Shown here piece after piece: positions 5,498 to 45,823 of a stretch of DNA of 64,000 bases. Within the stretch, counting starts at the first letter, position 1. The number at the start of each line of letters is the position of its first letter. Source of the DNA: an uncultured Pseudomonadales bacterium (GTDB lineage Bacteria; Pseudomonadota; Gammaproteobacteria; Pseudomonadales; Azotimanducaceae); NCBI GenBank assembly GCA_951813515.1, contig OX638346.1:2783617-2847616 (forward strand), given 5' to 3'. Below the pieces are notes generated by a model, which was not told the DNA's origin, did not search any database, and saw only the letters and a list, made by a program, of their open reading frames with translations. The position numbers were made by a program, and so were the translations under genes.

Positions 5498-6720
5498 AGT
5501 GTGTTTTTCGGATCGGCGCGGTCCTTGCGCTGCTGTCGGTGGTCGGATGCAGCTGGTTCGACTGGGTGCCGGGGGTTGGTGGCGGAAAGAAAGAGGATCC
5601 CGCCAAACCGGTTCCGCTGGTCGAGTTTGCCGAGGAAGCCGACGTGGTGCGGTTGTGGCAGGCGTCCGTTGGCAAGGGTCTCGGCCGCAAGTACCTGCGG
5701 CTGACGCCGGCCATCCTCGCCGACCGTGTCTACGCGGCGGACGCCTACGGCGCAGTCGCGGCATTCGATCGTTTCACTGGAAGGAACGCCTGGCGCACCA
5801 GTATCGGCAAGCCGGACGGCGGGGCGGGTTTCAAGTTCTGGGACCGGCGCGACCCGTCCTTCGTAACGGGCGGCGTCGGCGCGGCCAGCGGACGGGTGCT
5901 GGTCGGGACCACGCGGGGCGAAATCGTCGCGCTGGACGCGGCGGACGGGTCCCCCTTGTGGCGGGCCGAAGCCAGCAGCGAAGTATTGTCGCCCCCGGTC
6001 GGCGCCGAAGACCTGGTGGTCGTGCAGACCTCAGACGGTCGGATCGCCGCGCTCAACAGTGCCGACGGCTCGCCGCGCTGGAGCTTCGACACCCAGCCGC
6101 CGATATTGACGCTGCGCGGCACCGCGGAGCCCTCGCTGCGCGGCGGGCTGGTTTATGCGGGATTCGCCACCGGCAAGGTCGCGGCGTTCCGCGCCGAGAA
6201 CGGGGACCTCATCTGGGAGCAGCGCGTCATGCTGCCCGAAGGTCGTTCCGAACTGGGTCGGATGGTGGACATCGACGGATCACCCCTGTTCCTGCGCGGC
6301 GTCCTCTACGCGGTCAGCTTCCAGGGGCGTCTGAAAGCGTTCAGGGGAACCGACGGCGCTCCGATGTGGGAAATGGAGATGTCTTCATTTCTCGACCTCG
6401 CCGAAGGCTACGGCCAGCTCTACGTCGTGTCGGACGAAGGCGTCGTCAGCGCTGTCGAGCAGACTGATTCGACGTTGGTGTGGCAGCAGGAGGGTCTGCG
6501 CAATCGGGAACTGACCAGTCCCGTGGCGTTCAGCAACTACGTCGTGGTGGGTGACGCCGAAGGATACCTGCACGTGCTTGCCCAGAGCGACGGCCGTTTC
6601 GTCGCCCGGCGCAAGGTTGGCGACGGCCTCCGCTCCGGCATGACGGTCGCGGACAACGTCGTCTACGTACTCACCAACGATGGCCGGTTGAACGCGCTGG
6701 AGATCAGGCGCAGGACATGA
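5494..6720 (+). CDS. bamB: Outer membrane assembly lipoprotein BamB
   Basis: Eight-bladed beta-propeller lipoprotein of the BAM complex, which inserts beta-barrel proteins into the outer membrane. 408 residues. The lipoprotein signal peptide ends LSVVGC with the lipidated Cys19. PQQ-like blade motifs recur (VYAADAYGAVAAFD, IVALDAADGSPLW, IAALNSADGSPRW, LKAFRGTDGAPMW). Overlaps both neighbours by ATGA in the yfgM-bamB-der order usual for gammaproteobacteria. Confidence 0.96.
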   Translation: MKCVFRIGAVLALLSVVGCSWFDWVPGVGGGKKEDPAKPVPLVEFAEEADVVRLWQASVGKGLGRKYLRLTPAILADRVYAADAYGAVAAFDRFTGRNAWRTSIGKPDGGAGFKFWDRRDPSFVTGGVGAASGRVLVGTTRGEIVALDAADGSPLWRAEASSEVLSPPVGAEDLVVVQTSDGRIAALNSADGSPRWSFDTQPPILTLRGTAEPSLRGGLVYAGFATGKVAAFRAENGDLIWEQRVMLPEGRSELGRMVDIDGSPLFLRGVLYAVSFQGRLKAFRGTDGAPMWEMEMSSFLDLAEGYGQLYVVSDEGVVSAVEQTDSTLVWQQEGLRNRELTSPVAFSNYVVVGDAEGYLHVLAQSDGRFVARRKVGDGLRSGMTVADNVVYVLTNDGRLNALEIRRRT

Positions 6721-8414
6721 CCGTCGTCGCCCTCGTGGGCCGGCCGAACGTTGGGAAATCCACCCTGTTCAACCGGCTGACGGCGGCCCGCGACGCGCTG
6801 GTCGCGAATCGGCCCGGACTCACCCGCGACCGCCAGTACGGCATTGCCGACCTCGACGGGCGCACCGTGGTCCTAATCGACACGGGCGGCCTCGCCAACG
6901 ATGTCGACGACCCCTCAATGGCATCGCTGGTGGCCGAGCAGGCGAACGTCGCTATCGACGAGTCCGACTGGGTGGTGTTCCTGGTCAACGCCCGCGAAGG
7001 CCTCAATGCAGCGGACGAAGAGATCGCGGACGGTCTCCGCCGTCGCGGCGCTCGCCCGCTGCTCGTCGCGAACAAGATCGACGGCGTTCCGCCCGAGACC
7101 GCGCTTGCCGACTTCTCCCGCCTCGGCTTCGGTGCCCCCCTGCTCATATCCGCAGCCCACGGCCGCGGCATCGCCGCCTTCCGCGAGAGTCTGGCGGAGT
7201 GCATCGACTCTGGCGCCGGGGATGCCGTTGGTGCCGTTGGGGATGGTGCTGTTGGGGACACCCATCCCGATCCTGGCGCCGAGGACACCCATCCTGGGGA
7301 GGACACCCATCCTGGTGGTGCTGTTGGGGATGGTGCTGTTGGGGACACCGGTGCTGTTGGGGACACCCATCCCGATCCTGGCGCCGAGGACACCCATCTT
7401 TGGGAGGACACCCATCCCAGTAAGGACACCCATCCTGGGGAGGACACCCATACCGGGAAGGACACCCATCCTACTGCCACCTGGGACACCCATCTGGGGG
7501 ACACCCATCCCGAAGCGGACAGGTGGGATGCAGGGAACTCCTCCGGGATGCCGAAGGTGGCGGTGGTCGGGCGTCCGAATGTCGGCAAGTCGACGCTCGT
7601 CAACCGGCTCCTTGGCGATACCCGCCAGATCGTCTCCGAGACGCCGGGGACGACGCGCGATGCGGTGTACGTGCCTTTCCGGCGCGGTGACTCGGACTAT
7701 CTGCTGATCGATACGGCCGGTGTGCGCCGCCGGGGCCGCGTTCACGACATGGTCGAGAAGTTCTCTGTGGCCAAGACGCTCGAAGCGCTGAGCCGAGCGG
7801 ATGTCGCGCTCGTCCTGATCGATGCCCGCGAAGGGTTGGTGGATCAGGATCTGAACATTCTGCGGTACGCTGCTGACGCGGGAACGGGCCTGATCCTGGC
7901 GGTGAACAAGTGGGACGGGGTCTCGCCGGAGGAGCGGGCGGGGGTTCGCAAGGGCATGGATCGCCGGATGCGGTTCGCGCCCTGGGTTCCGGCCAGATTC
8001 ATCTCCGCCTTACGCGGCACGGGCGTCGCCGGGCTTATGCGCCTAGTTGACGAAATCCATATGGCTGCGGGACGGGACGCGTCGCCCGCCCAGTTGACCC
8101 GCATCCTCAACCAGGCGACGGAGGACCACCCACCGCCCGCCGTGAGCGGCCGACCGATCAAGCTCCGCTTTGCCCACAGGGTAGGTTCGCGTCCGCTGGT
8201 CATCGCCGTGCACGGAAACCGCACCGGCGTCCTGCCTGCATCCTACGTGCGCTATCTGGAAAACACCTATCGCGACGCGCTGTCGCTCGCGGGCGTGCCC
8301 GTCAAGATCGTGTTGCAATCGGGTAACAACCCCTTCTCGGGCAGGCGCAACGAACTCACCCGCAGGCAGCGAATCCGACGCCAGCGCGTCATTCGCCGCG
8401 ACCGGCGTCGCTGA
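6717..8414 (+). CDS. der: Ribosome assembly GTPase Der with a repeat-encoded linker between its G domains
   Basis: Tandem-GTPase factor essential for 50S subunit maturation. Both P-loops are intact (GRPNVGKS near residues 8-15 and 283-290), with NKID and NKWD G4 motifs and a C-terminal KH domain ending in an Arg-rich tail. The protein is 565 residues against about 450-490 usual. The extra length is a stretch at about 166-277 rich in DTHP units, encoded by 11 in-frame copies of GGACACCCAT. The reading frame is uninterrupted and both domains look normal, so I infer a functional enzyme with an expanded linker. Follows bamB with an ATGA overlap. Confidence 0.96.
   Translation: MTVVALVGRPNVGKSTLFNRLTAARDALVANRPGLTRDRQYGIADLDGRTVVLIDTGGLANDVDDPSMASLVAEQANVAIDESDWVVFLVNAREGLNAADEEIADGLRRRGARPLLVANKIDGVPPETALADFSRLGFGAPLLISAAHGRGIAAFRESLAECIDSGAGDAVGAVGDGAVGDTHPDPGAEDTHPGEDTHPGGAVGDGAVGDTGAVGDTHPDPGAEDTHLWEDTHPSKDTHPGEDTHTGKDTHPTATWDTHLGDTHPEADRWDAGNSSGMPKVAVVGRPNVGKSTLVNRLLGDTRQIVSETPGTTRDAVYVPFRRGDSDYLLIDTAGVRRRGRVHDMVEKFSVAKTLEALSRADVALVLIDAREGLVDQDLNILRYAADAGTGLILAVNKWDGVSPEERAGVRKGMDRRMRFAPWVPARFISALRGTGVAGLMRLVDEIHMAAGRDASPAQLTRILNQATEDHPPPAVSGRPIKLRFAHRVGSRPLVIAVHGNRTGVLPASYVRYLENTYRDALSLAGVPVKIVLQSGNNPFSGRRNELTRRQRIRRQRVIRRDRRR
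7255..7510 (+). repeat. Repeat array A (inside der)
   Basis: Eleven copies of GGACACCCAT on the + strand with spacers of about 5-40 bases, all read in the frame GAC-ACC-CAT (Asp-Thr-His). A larger block is partly duplicated: the string GGGACACCCATCCCGATC followed by CTGGCGCCGAGGACACCC occurs twice, about 115 bases apart, implying local duplication after insertion. Confidence 0.9.
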
Positions 8415-8586: not shown

Positions 8587-8887
8587 GGGGACACCCATTT
8601 TCGAGGGGACAGCCATCTTCCCGTCCGAGGACACCCATCCCGGGGAGGACGCCCATCTTCCCGTCGTCCACATCTTCTAAGGGACAGCCGTCTTTCCGTC
8701 GGCGTTAAGGACAGCCATCTCCAGTCGTCGATCTCAGTCGGCCGCCATCTCCCGCTAAGGACAGCCACCTCCACGTCAAGGACGGCTATCCTCCGCTTCG
8801 AGGACAGCCATCTCCCGAGGACAGCCATCGCCCGGCGTCAGGCACCAGCCATCTCCCGAGGACAGCCATCGCCCGGCGTCAGGCACC
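8587..8887 (+). repeat. Repeat array B (der / M23 peptidase intergenic)
   Basis: About seven good copies of GGACACCCAT or GGACAGCCAT plus several degenerate ones (for example GGACGCCCAT, GGACAGCCGT). The last part contains a nearly exact duplicate of a 37-39 base block ending GCCCGGCGTCAGGCACC. The array fills most of the 520-base gap 8415-8934 between the convergent der and M23 genes; I see no gene or clear terminator in the remainder. Confidence 0.85.
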
Positions 8888-12247: not shown

Positions 12248-12350
12248 GGGACACCCGATCCGATCGAACTTCGGGACACCTCGTCGGATGACGAGTGGGC
12301 GCTCGGGAAGTGGGCGCTCGGGACACCAGTGGGCGCTCGGGACACCCATT
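12248..12350 (+). repeat. Repeat array C (downstream side of the transposase)
   Basis: Degenerate short array: CGGGACACCCGA, CGGGACACCTCG, CGGGACACCAGT and one full GGGACACCCATT, separated by GTGGGCGCTCGG-like spacers. Lies in the 531-base gap 12134-12664, which otherwise holds no recognisable gene. Confidence 0.65.
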
Positions 12351-12664: not shown

Positions 12665-13573
12665 TCAGACGATGGCCGCGAGCCAGGCGGGAGTTTCTCT
12701 CCTACGTTGGGTCCGCCGACGCTGCGCGGCAAACGTCGTTAACCAGGTGCGTCGACTTCGCCAGCATAGGGGAGGGTCGGTCCCCACGCCCTCACCGCGG
12801 CACCGCGCCGCAGTCCACTCCGCCTGAGAGAGATATTCTTCCAAGGTTGTTGCCAGTGCCGATTCTCCGGCGGACAGCACACGTCCCGAGCCGTGCTCTA
12901 AGCGCAGCGGCCTTAGCGGTTCTTGCATGCGCTTCGGCGCAGTTTCTGCTTCCTCTAACCTCCGTCGCAACGATGTTTGTTGTGGCGCGTCTATTTGCGC
13001 CACCATGCCTGCCCTTAGCGGGTTCAGGTCGTTGTACACCATGCACGCGTGCGCTGCCTCTGCGTCGGGCAAAGGGCGAGAGTCGAATCGTCCATCCCAG
13101 AAGCGGCCCGTGCGGTCGTCTTCCTTGTTTGCACGGCGTGCGATGTGCTCATTGAGGCACCTCATGTACCAGGACAGGTCGCCCAAGTGTTGCCTGATCT
13201 CGGTGAGTCGCTTCTGGTCCGCCAATAGAGCCGCTTCTTGACCGGCGCGTTCTTGTGGATTTCTAGGTCGTGGCCCGAACACGCAAAGCCAGCGCCGCGC
13301 GATTTCGGTGTCAGACCAAGCTTGGACGCGGGCCGGGCAATAGTTGACAACCATGTGGTAGTGATTCGACATGACGGCGTAGGCGTACACGTCTACAGGG
13401 AAGACCTCGGTCAAGGTGAGCAGTCGTTGTTCGATCCATCCGCGGCGGTGGTCGAAGTTCTCGCCTGTGTATGGGTCTTCACCGCAGAGCCAGGCTTGGC
13501 GTACGCAGCGATTAAAGAGGTGGTAGAAGCCACCGTTCTCCCGGTCAACCAGTTCGCTTCTGGGTCGAGTCAT
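12665..13573 (-). mobile_element. REP-associated tyrosine transposase (RAYT, Y1_Tnp family)
   Basis: Single-strand transposase of the IS200/IS605-related RAYT group, which in other bacteria processes REP palindromes. 302 residues from the ATG at 13573 (MTRPRSELVDREN). The HUH metal-binding motif is SNHYHMVV (His71, His73). A candidate nucleophile is Tyr136 in LSWYMRCLNEHIARRANK, and GRFWDGRFDSRPL is a conserved family motif. The open frame continues upstream through repeats to 14080, but that part is array-derived. No IS ends or target duplications are evident. It is flanked by copies of the window's repeat family in inverted orientation (array C versus arrays D and E), as expected for a domesticated RAYT and its repeats. 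Appears intact. Confidence 0.88.
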
Positions 13574-13772: not shown

Positions 13773-13857
13773 CAGAGATGGGTGTCCTGAGAAGATCCTA
13801 AGAAGATCCCCGGGATGGGTGTCCTGAGAAGATCCCCGAGATGGGTGTCCTGAGAAG
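13773..13857 (-). repeat. Repeat array D (upstream side of the transposase)
   Basis: Three copies of GATGGGTGTCCTGAGAAGAT (reverse complement of the family core) within 85 bases, about 200 bases upstream of the RAYT start. The stretch 13574-14358 otherwise holds only array E and a doubtful small reading frame. Confidence 0.85.
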
Positions 13858-14058
13858 ATCTACCACCGGACCTACCGGACCTACGCCCGCATACTGCGCC
13901 CGCCATGTCCGTGGTGTTCGACGTCCCGCCGCGCTCGGCCTCCCGCCTCAACCGCGCAGTCGACTCGTTCGACAGCGAAGTGCAGCGGCTGTGGGAGGGG
14001 CGCCAGCTCGCCGCCTGATATGCAACCCAACTGTTAACATCAGCTCCGCTCAAGGAAT

Positions 14059-14292
14059 CTAGAGATGGCTGTCCTGGCATGCCACAAGATGGGTGTCCTT
14101 GGAATATTCCTTGGAATACTCGGTGTCTTGTGAGACGTTCTGAGAACGCTCTTGAGCCGTGTTTTCGTGGGATTGCGCGTCTCGCGCGTCCGTCGCTGCG
14201 TTCGTGAGGTCCCGCATGGCTGGCGCCATGACATTGATGCGAGGATCGCCATGCAGCGCATCGCGACCGTTGACTATCGGTTCTGCGATCAA
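14059..14292 (-). CDS. Doubtful small ORF running into repeats
   Basis: A 77-codon frame beginning MIAEPIVNGRDALHGD and ending KDTHLVACQDSHL. Its last dozen residues are encoded by array E. No ribosome-binding site or family is recognised. The first 45 residues have plausible composition, so this may be a small gene whose 3' end was replaced by repeats, or chance. Confidence 0.2.
   Translation of the reverse strand: MIAEPIVNGRDALHGDPRINVMAPAMRDLTNAATDARDAQSHENTAQERSQNVSQDTEYSKEYSKDTHLVACQDSHL
14063..14099 (-). repeat. Repeat pair E
   Basis: Two reverse-orientation copies, AGATGGCTGTCCTGG and AGATGGGTGTCCTTGG, 13 bases apart. One is the G variant and one the C variant of the core, showing that both types co-occur within a single array. 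Confidence 0.75.
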
Positions 14293-16362: not shown

Positions 16363-16555
16363 AGGACACCCATACATCATCCTGGACGGGACACCCATCC
16401 GGGACGGGACACCCATCCGGGACGGGACACCCATCATCAAAGCGGGGACGGGGACAGCCATCGTCTAGCCGGGACGGGCCCACCATCAGCACAGGACAGC
16501 CATCATCAACTGGACGAACAGCACGGGGCGGCCATTCTTCAGCCGGGACACCCAT
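16363..16555 (+). repeat. Repeat array F (divergent promoter region)
   Basis: Seven copies: five GGACACCCAT and two GGACAGCCAT. Three tandem units GGGACACCCATCC with a short spacer sit around 16385-16430. The array occupies most of the 376-base region between the divergent acetoacetyl-CoA synthetase and hydrolase genes. Confidence 0.9.
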
Positions 16556-16624
16556 AAGGCGGAAGAGCCTGCATCCGCGCGCGCCGCGCTTGCCCTCGGA
16601 GCTTTGTGTGAGCAATGTGCCCGC

Positions 16625-18909: not shown

Positions 18910-19466
18910 CGGGATGGCTGTCCCTGGGATGTGGTCCCTGGGATGTGTCATAGGGATGGCTGTCCCCGAGAGGTGTCTCCCCGAGAGGTGTCGTCTCCGG
19001 GAGGTGCCCGGTCACTGGGTGTTCCAGATGACGGTGTGCCCGAGGGGTGAGTGTCGCGAAAGCGAATCTTGGGTGTCCCAAAGAGATGGGTGTCCCGAAC
19101 GAATCATGTCCCGAACGAATCATGGGATGGGTGTCCCCCGCTAGGCTGAGATGGGTGTCCCGAACGGGGGATGGGATGTTGGATGGGTGTCCCTGGATGG
19201 GTGTCTTGGTGGGTGTCCCTGGGGATGGGTGTCTCTCGGGGATGGCGGGATGGGTTCCCTCGGGATCGGTGTCCTCTCGGGATGCTCGGGATGATGGGGA
19301 TGGGTGTCCAAGGGAGATGGGTGTCCCGAACGGAACGTCGGGATGGGTGTCCAAGGGAGATGGGTGTCCCGAACGGAACGTCGTCCGGGATGGGTGTCCA
19401 AGGGAGATGGGTGTCCCGAACGGAACGTCCCGAACGGAACGCGGGGATGGGTGTCCCGAACGGAAC
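18910..19466 (-). repeat. Repeat array G (upstream of gspE)
   Basis: About 13 copies of ATGG[G/C]TGTCC plus degenerate ones. From 19298 a composite unit of 43-46 bases, two cores plus the spacers AAGGGAG and CGAACGGAACGTC, is repeated about three times. The array fills most of the 827-base gap before gspE. No gene is seen, although all frames remain open through it, so gene callers would extend gspE leftwards to 19304. Confidence 0.9.
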
Positions 19467-25017: not shown

Positions 25018-25648
25018 TTTGGGACACCCATCTTGTTCGGTGACCCGCTTTTTTTGGGACACCCATCGTTCGGGACACCCATCGCCTGGGACACCCATCT
25101 TGTTCGGGACACCCATCGCATCGCCTGGGGACACCCATCTTGTTCGGTGACCCGCTTTTTTTGGGACACCCATCGTTCGGGACACCCATCGCCTGGGACA
25201 CCCATCTTGTTCGGGACACCCATCGCATCGCCTGGGGACACCCATCTTGTTCGGGACACCCATCGCCTTCGGGACAGCCATCTTGTTCGGGACAGCCATC
25301 GTGATCGGGACAGCCATCGTCATCGCTCTCGGGATACCCATCGTTCGGGACACTCATCGCCTGGGGACAGCCATCTTGTTCGGGACAGCCATCGTGATCG
25401 GGACAGCCATCGTCATCGCTTGGGGACACCCATCGCGCTGGGGACACATCGCCTTCGGGACAGCCATCTTGTTCGGGACAGCCATCTTGTTCGGGACACC
25501 CAACGCGCTAGGGACACCCAACGCGCTAGGGACACATCGCCTTCGGGACACCCATCGGGTTCGGGACAGCCATCGTGATCGGTAGCCACCCCGTTCGGGA
25601 CAGCCATCGCCTTCGGGACAGCCATCGCGTCAGGGACACCCACCCCTC
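25018..25648 (+). repeat. Repeat array H, the largest (between and into gspJ/gspK)
   Basis: About 25 copies of GGACA[C/G]CCAT plus variants (GGATACCCAT, GGACACTCAT, GGACACCCAACG). Two identical 107-base blocks lie at 25038-25144 and 25145-25251; each begins with CGGTGACCCGC followed by a run of seven T, copied from the gspJ end. C-type cores dominate the left half and G-type cores the right half. The right end encodes the first residues of GspK. Confidence 0.95.
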
Positions 25649-26780
25649 GAGTCGAGGCTTCGTGCTCATCGCGACGCTCTGGACGCTGGCGGCGATGGCT
25701 GTCCTCGCGGCATACATCGATGGCGTCGCATCCGCCGACATCGAGCGCGCCGCGGCAGCGAGGTCCGCCCTCGAGCGGGAACTCGCGCAGCGCAGCACGG
25801 AGGCCACGCTGGCCTACCTGCTGTCGACGGGCCGCATGAACCATCGCAGCCTGATGCTGGAGACGGAGCAGTCCTTCACCGACGTGGAGGGCAACCGCGG
25901 CCCGGATCGAAGCGTGGGCGTGATCGGACTGACCGGTGAAACCTATGCCGGCCCGGGCGGCGCGCGCTTTTCGATCCAGGACGAGAACGGCCTTGTGTCG
26001 GTCAATTTCCCCCATAGCACCAACTTCGCGAGTGTGCTGTCGTACGTGGGCGTTTCGTCCTCCGACATCGCCCGCATCGCCCCCAGGGTGGAGGACTACG
26101 TCGACATGGACGACAACCTCTCCCTGGGTGGGGCGGAGCACTTCGACTACGACCGGCTCACCGCGCCCGTCCCCGTCCCCGCCGGTCGCGCCGTGCCGCC
26201 TTCCCAGGCCGGCGTGCCTCCCACCGATCAGGACCGATCCGCTGCCGTCCCGGCGGGCACAGTTGCCGGCGCTGCCTCCGACCTCGGGCTTCCCGGTCCA
26301 TCGAACTGGATCATGGCCACGCCCCTGGAGCTGCGGCGTGTCCTCGGCGTGGGAGACTTCATTACCCCCGACCAGTGGCGCCGCCTCCTGCCCATGCTTT
26401 CCGTGCGCCAGACGAGCGGAGTCAACTTCAACACCATGCGGCCGGACGTCCTCGCTGCGGTCCTCAAGCTGGACCAGGGCGCGATCGACAACATCGTCGC
26501 CGAGCGCGCCGAACGCACCGTGTCGAGCCTGAGCCGCGTCGCCATGCTGACGGGCACCCACGTGGACATCGATCCCATGGGCGTGAAGGGGCTGCCGTCC
26601 AACTTCCTGCGAATCTCCATCTGGCATAATGCCAGCGGTTCGCGGTCCGTCGTCGGCATGGCGCTGACCCCCTTCGGGGACACCCCCTGGCGTATCGATT
26701 ACCGCTACACGGAGCCCGTGATTGAAAACGAGTCGAGCGATGCCGGCGTTTTCCAGGCTGCGACGCCGCTTCTCCAATAA
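25575..26780 (+). CDS. gspK: Minor pseudopilin GspK with a repeat-encoded leader
   Basis: Large tip pseudopilin. The prepilin-like segment SSRGFVLIATLWTLAAMAV is at about residues 25-43, followed by the large alpha-helical GspK domain (calcium-site region DYVDMDDNLSLGGAE). 401 residues. The only conventional in-frame start is GTG 25575, inside array H. The leader therefore reads as repeat-derived units (VRDSHR, LRDSHR, VRDTHP) directly before SSRG. The arginines keep it positively charged, so it may work as a prepilin leader. A GspK lacking Glu5 is normal for this family. Confidence 0.85.
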   Translation: MIGSHPVRDSHRLRDSHRVRDTHPSSRGFVLIATLWTLAAMAVLAAYIDGVASADIERAAAARSALERELAQRSTEATLAYLLSTGRMNHRSLMLETEQSFTDVEGNRGPDRSVGVIGLTGETYAGPGGARFSIQDENGLVSVNFPHSTNFASVLSYVGVSSSDIARIAPRVEDYVDMDDNLSLGGAEHFDYDRLTAPVPVPAGRAVPPSQAGVPPTDQDRSAAVPAGTVAGAASDLGLPGPSNWIMATPLELRRVLGVGDFITPDQWRRLLPMLSVRQTSGVNFNTMRPDVLAAVLKLDQGAIDNIVAERAERTVSSLSRVAMLTGTHVDIDPMGVKGLPSNFLRISIWHNASGSRSVVGMALTPFGDTPWRIDYRYTEPVIENESSDAGVFQAATPLLQ

Positions 26781-45609: not shown

Positions 45610-45823
45610 GATGGGTGTCCCCAAGAGATGGGTGTCCCCAGGAGATGGGTGTCCCCGGGGGATGGGTGTCCCCGGGGGATGGGTGTCCTCGGGGGATGGG
45701 TGTCCCTGTCCCCAGGAGATGGGTGTCCCCGGCGATCGGAGATGGCTGTCCCCGAGAGATGGGTGTCCCCGAGAGATGGGTGTCCCCGGGGGATGGGTGT
45801 CCCCGGGGGATGGGTGTCCTCGG
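45610..45823 (-). repeat. Repeat array J (upstream of the FAN1-type gene)
   Basis: Twelve reverse-orientation copies (eleven ATGGGTGTCC, one ATGGCTGTCC). Many units are exactly 17 bases apart (ATGGGTGTCCCCGGGGG), so consecutive units fall in rotating frames. The junctions CCCCGGGG are self-complementary. The 421-base gap 45486-45906 holds this array, a promoter-like box and nothing else I can see. Confidence 0.92.

Follow-up and report, generated by a model that had tools for sequence, protein, structure and literature searches.

Der is a ribosome-assembly GTPase, and its gene is essential in E. coli. In the genome of an uncultured Pseudomonadales bacterium of the family Azotimanducaceae (G000), this gene carries an array of short tandem repeats between its two G domains, which raises the questions of where the repeat came from and how an essential gene accommodates it. 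We analyzed a window of 64,000 nucleotides that contains der (contig OX638346.1, positions 2,783,617 to 2,847,616 of the forward strand), together with the rest of the 4.3-Mb genome and its relatives. The features of the window are collected in Table 1.

Table 1. Repeat arrays and associated genes in the 64,000-nucleotide window (positions count from its first letter)
Feature	Position	Strand	Remarks
der (EngA)	6717-8414	+	565 aa; TIGR03594, PF01926 in two stretches, PF14714
der G domain 1	about 6717-7211	+
der linker	about 7212-7547	+	disordered 167-276 in AlphaFold model
105-bp higher-order duplication	7245-7456	+	35 codons; carries DTHP and AVGDG units; Tandem Repeats Finder
GGACACCCAT array in der	7256-7508	+	11 copies read as DTH (8 DTHP); exact match list; ten spacings, all multiples of 3
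der G domain 2 and KH-like domain	from about 7548	+
Extragenic array downstream of der	8589-8870	+	10 copies, up to one mismatch; spacings mixed modulo 3, not frame-preserving
Motif copy downstream of transposase gene	12340-12349	+	opposite strand to the gene, in degenerate array; L051 position 1173
REP-type HUH/Y1 tyrosine transposase, TIRYT-like	12665-13573	-	302 aa; NF047646, HUH and Y---NP motifs
Motif copies upstream of transposase gene	13778-14098	-	5 copies on the strand of the gene, two groups (L051)
Array near start of acs-like gene	16364-16556	+	7 copies; outside likely coding part
Array upstream of gspE-like gene	18913-19456	-	17 copies, two groups
Array at gspJ-gspK junction, into gspK leader	25022-25704	+	31 copies, up to one mismatch; largest in window
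Array between two genes	45610-45819	-	12 copies, period mostly 17

The der array is read in frame between two intact G domains

The der open reading frame contains no internal stop, and its product scores 489.8 bits against the Der model TIGR03594 (cut-off 306.7). The architecture of Der is present, with two G domains and, C-terminal to them, a KH-like domain. A preliminary description of this DNA, made from the letters alone, had reported 11 in-frame repeat copies within der and two intact P-loops, and both observations hold. Exact copies of GGACACCCAT within 7213-7547 begin at 7256, 7283, 7301, 7361, 7388, 7406, 7424, 7442, 7460, 7484, and 7499; all 11 encode DTH, and the remainder of the segment consists of an AVGDG-type unit. 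The longer duplication detected by Tandem Repeats Finder comprises 2.0 copies with 74% matches. A search of the genome returned no second intact der, and its other matches were partial and weak.

As a result of the array, which makes up most of it, the linker of G000 Der measures roughly 110 residues, compared with about 10-25 in relatives. Its P-loops lie 277 residues apart, as against about 170-185 in most relatives, so the earlier estimate of about 100 additional residues is correct. The linker holds 11 histidines and 26 acidic residues. In an AlphaFold model built on a shallow alignment of seven sequences, residues 167-276 have pLDDT values mostly of about 25-33 and are flanked by ordered domains, which predicts that the linker is unstructured.

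Arrays occupy the same der site in two sister species

Comparison of linker lengths in relatives, a check that the preliminary description had proposed, was carried out on eight same-genus neighbors of G000 (G001-G008). We found arrays in G003 and G005 at the same der site as the GGACACCCAT array of G000. Their repeat is GGACAGCCAT, read as DSH, with 7 linker copies in G003 (P-loops 254 residues apart) and 6 in G005 (229 residues). Copies are uniform within each species, with the codon ACC in G000 and AGC in G003 and G005; a GGACTCCCATC variant that we had guessed for the sisters from their DSH peptides proved wrong. Der of G004, G006, G007, and G008 has no array, and its P-loops are 174-178 residues apart. 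No der was recovered from the incomplete genome of G001, and that of G002 failed a simple two-P-loop script, although its two matched parts are close together. In other relatives the linker is short and, in most cases, acidic. Cut in the same way, it nevertheless reaches 41 and 65 residues in two that lack the motif (L010, L021), and the der linker site therefore tolerates length.

The core of the repeat is also frequent elsewhere: GGACASCCATC occurs 119 times in the G000 genome, and the same letters backwards occur 4 times. Because of this excess and of the comparable same-site arrays in separate assemblies of two sister species, chance is excluded. The presence of the array in G000, G003, and G005, but not in the other congeners examined, indicates that it most likely entered der in the ancestor of these three. 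Repeated entry at a permissive site is a possible alternative to one ancestral entry, and the two look alike here because the arrays cannot be reliably aligned.

The composition of the linker could also suggest that an acidic, histidine-rich segment has been kept for what it does to Der, for instance by binding metal or tuning contacts with the ribosome. The 11 histidines and 26 acidic residues in G000 and the retention of a linker repeat in three species are in keeping with such a selected function. However, histidine and aspartate follow from the DNA motif itself, related Der proteins do without the array, and copy number, unit, and net charge (-23, -13, and -6 across the three array-bearing sisters) differ widely in a segment predicted to be unstructured. 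We therefore consider a selected function improbable. Metal binding, which had been raised in the preliminary description, finds no backing here, as the histidines are dictated by the DNA motif and there is no sign of metal-site selection.

Spacing of the copies preserves the reading frame

Selection for an open frame predicts that copies within der should be separated by multiples of three bases. This is exactly what we found for the three der arrays, in which 21 of 21 spacings (15, 18, 24, 27, 39, or 60 bases) are multiples of 3. By comparison, 88 of 257 spacings keep this rule in noncoding arrays outside der and gspK (Fisher p = 8e-10, a value that serves as a guide only, since spacings within an array are not independent). 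The arrays assigned to the GspK leader behave like those of der (16 of 16 spacings, with the start of the region set by hand). The motif unit is free of stops in all six frames, encoding GHPS, DTHP, and TPI on one strand and GWVS, DGCP, and MGV on the other. The difference between der and the outside arrays argues that the frame of the der array is under selection and that the array is very likely translated.

Assembly errors are common in repeat arrays, and an array within an essential gene could also mark a gene in decay. Yet three separate assemblies carry in-frame arrays with different units at the same site, every spacing in der keeps the frame, and no other der was found. We therefore reject an artefact or pseudogene on the basis of the sister arrays and of frame preservation, and regard this explanation as extremely improbable. 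The same evidence extends beyond one genome the earlier proposal that the insertion is tolerated. Intact domains and a preserved frame suggest that Der with its array is a functional, expressed protein and that the effect of the insert is probably near neutral.

The repeat is paired with a REP-type transposase gene

The preliminary description missed where the element likely comes from: about 4.3 kb downstream of der lies a gene for a REP-type tyrosine transposase, with the same motif in its flanks. The encoded protein matches the NCBIfam model NF047646 (REP_Tyr_transpos) with an E value of 1.2e-8 and 35 bits, below the cut-off of 80. Its HUH (NHYH) and Y---NP (YNDLNP) motifs are kept in orthologues. 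Because the Pfam Y1_Tnp profile misses this product, we used the transposase's own sequence as a search probe. Relatives were found in G005 (75% identity, sharing a contig with der), G003 (74%), G001 (56%), and G011 (52% over its match).

In G000, G005, and G011, the motif lies upstream of the transposase gene on the strand of the gene and downstream on the other strand; G001 has a looser motif with the same polarity. We extended this comparison to 55 transposase-homologue loci drawn from the genus, the family, and the order. At these loci, GGACA[CG]CCA occurred 43 times upstream in sense and 22 times downstream in antisense orientation, and never upstream in antisense or downstream in sense orientation, while letter-scrambled control motifs gave at most 2 per class. 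Beside some homologues, related motifs such as GGACACACA and GGACAGGCA show this polarity too. That gene and motif go together across homologous loci is strong evidence that transposase and motif are partners, and the enzyme presumably cleaves the motif. Other transposase homologues in G000 (L065, L073, L076) adjoin GGACACAC-type motifs rather than GGACACCCAT, as if each transposase gene had its own motif.

Copies of the motif also crowd around the transposase gene. A region of 220 kb around it holds 104 of the 119 exact GGACASCCATC copies in the genome, and 93 of the 115 exact GGACA[CG]CCAT copies of that region lie within 25 kb of the gene. Crowding recurs in G008, which has a transposase homologue about 50% identical. 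There, GGACAGGCAC occurs 84 times, compared with 9 for the backward control; 49 copies lie within 25 kb of the homologue and none between 25 and 100 kb in the stretch examined. G002 has 80 copies of GGACAGGCAC, with 11 for the control. At G008:C1:428407-456054 (L149-L151), GGACAGGCAC stands beside the related transposase gene with the same upstream and downstream polarity. A candidate in-frame coding array near this transposase gene, at 431965, had no convincing gene and was set aside. Judged from coordinates, several arrays of our window seem to match arrays on the G005 contig in both order and orientation, so that the positions of the arrays appear long established and their contents subject to turnover. 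A distant cluster in G000 (G000:C1:1005873-1006530, L093) comprises 23 motif-like copies at regular spacings of 13, 28, 45, or 51 bases and holds both GGACACCCATC and GGACAGGCAC.

These distributions bear on a simpler account, in which the array is a plain coding minisatellite that grew by slippage of motif-like linker sequence with no involvement of a transposase. The copies are indeed tandem, include a 105-bp higher-order duplication, and are uniform within each species, as tandem growth predicts. This account is nonetheless unlikely, given that the same ten bases form many arrays outside der, that copies are concentrated near the transposase gene and border its homologues in fixed polarity, and that a chance origin of the same core within the linker is itself unlikely.

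The repeat also lies in secretion genes

GspK is a type II secretion pseudopilin, and in G003 and G005 its prepilin leader is lengthened by in-frame DTH/DSH repeats (L134, L135). After the ATG, EWDTH/ERDSH-type repeats run up to SSGG before FVLIATLW, in the same motif reading frame as in der. GspJ of both species contains one or two WDTH copies each, and that of G000 has none. These genes agree with the earlier claim that the element is able to sit and expand in coding sequence.

The gspJ-gspK array of G000 is longer than in the sisters, and its frame is not kept throughout. GTG at 25575, the sole usual in-frame gspK start in the stretch examined, lies inside the array, and GspK of G000 may therefore owe its start to the repeat. 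Separately, gspK of G003 (L100, G003:C59) has a second, unrelated tandem peptide repeat, GTSIQP, with five units in a variable region.

Relation to known repeat systems

In a TIRtron, inverted repeats flank a Y1 transposase gene, and several of these repeats have the sequence GGGGWSAS in common (PMC3733652, Di Nocera et al. 2013). Most TIRYTs fall in TnpAY1 subclass 2.1, for which no REP-like sequences were reported and which has a reported C-terminal helix-turn-helix domain (PMC6006769). The system described here resembles them in its REP-type Y1/HUH transposase gene, its inverted non-REP flanks, and its clustered repeat family. The GGGGACA[CG] form of the motif is compatible with the GGGGWSAS consensus, in full at the 21 of 84 GGACA[CG]CCAT copies of the window that follow a GG and in part at the others. 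The system differs in that a short core repeated in tandem makes up the flanks, sense on one side and antisense on the other, and in that copies are concentrated near the gene and are translated in frame with der. The transposase-repeat system is likely a TIRYT, with a membership that is not complete because a Pfam scan of the product detected no helix-turn-helix domain, although such a scan could miss a divergent one.

REPs of the GTAG and CGTC types occur inside open reading frames without breaking them, encode up to 43-82 residues, and are thought to be tolerated in linkers or loops (PMC3733652). Our repeat is likewise transposase-linked and leaves the frame unbroken, but those elements are tagged palindromes, and the target here is der, with arrays of its own in sister species. 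Six repeat units or arrays folded no better than shuffled sequences (z from -1.3 to 0.6), so the repeat has no hairpin beyond chance and is not a REP. No constant GTAG or CGTC tag accompanies the core in aligned copies. Rickettsia palindromic elements are selfish repeats that sit in frame within unrelated housekeeping genes (PMC10969869). They share in-frame reading inside genes with the present repeat, but are palindromes of about 100-150 bp inserted as units, whereas here a ten-base core has expanded in tandem as short direct repeats without a hairpin, near a transposase gene.

Coding minisatellites consist of in-frame tandem copies whose number differs between relatives. The der arrays share these properties; unlike minisatellites, they are built from a unit that also forms a dispersed family linked to a transposase gene. 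Searching open-licence papers for the exact motif turned up only work on other topics. Within that literature, we found no description of a tandem array that stays in frame within an essential GTPase across three species, of a non-palindromic TIR-type repeat as the source, or of crowding around a transposase gene with two motif variants. The process is of a known kind, with der as a clear example in an essential gene.

Origin and meaning of the der array

Together, these results make it probable that a transposase-linked repeat entered the der linker in an ancestor and then expanded there in tandem and in frame. The non-palindromic repeat, with the core GGACA[CG]CCAT, would belong to the TIRYT-like HUH tyrosine transposase and would have entered the inter-domain linker in a common ancestor of at least three species of the genus, likely through single-strand cleavage and joining by the transposase. 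Insertion of copies by this enzyme is what their distribution suggests; neither an insertion event nor an empty site at base resolution was seen. Within der, the copy would have multiplied by tandem duplication, through slippage or unequal exchange, and each species would then have gone its own way in the divergence of its array. Since the cell needs Der, only in-frame lengths would be kept. The linker is an unstructured tether, variable and in most cases acidic. Read as DTH/DSH, the repeat would add acidic, unstructured sequence, and the insert is therefore probably nearly neutral. Also counting against this explanation, the transposase protein scores below the family-model cut-off, and the expansion step does not require transposase-driven insertion, as slippage by itself could account for all the growth that followed entry.

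In more general terms, and tentatively, a TIRYT-type transposase may spread a short non-palindromic repeat of its own, for the most part no farther than about 25 kb from its gene, and the stop-free, acidic coding potential of that repeat may let it settle in neighboring genes, essential ones included. Host proteins would thereby be rewritten by a selfish repeat without loss of function; this is a suggestion that we hold with somewhat less than even confidence.

For this genus, the finding would mean that a repeat family tied to a transposase gene has occupied the interior of an essential gene from a time before three species split, its frame held by selection. The der arrays offer a natural series of linker lengths for studying how much tether Der tolerates. 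With the polar layout of the motif and its crowding around two transposase alleles in one genus, the spread of REP-type repeats becomes directly testable.
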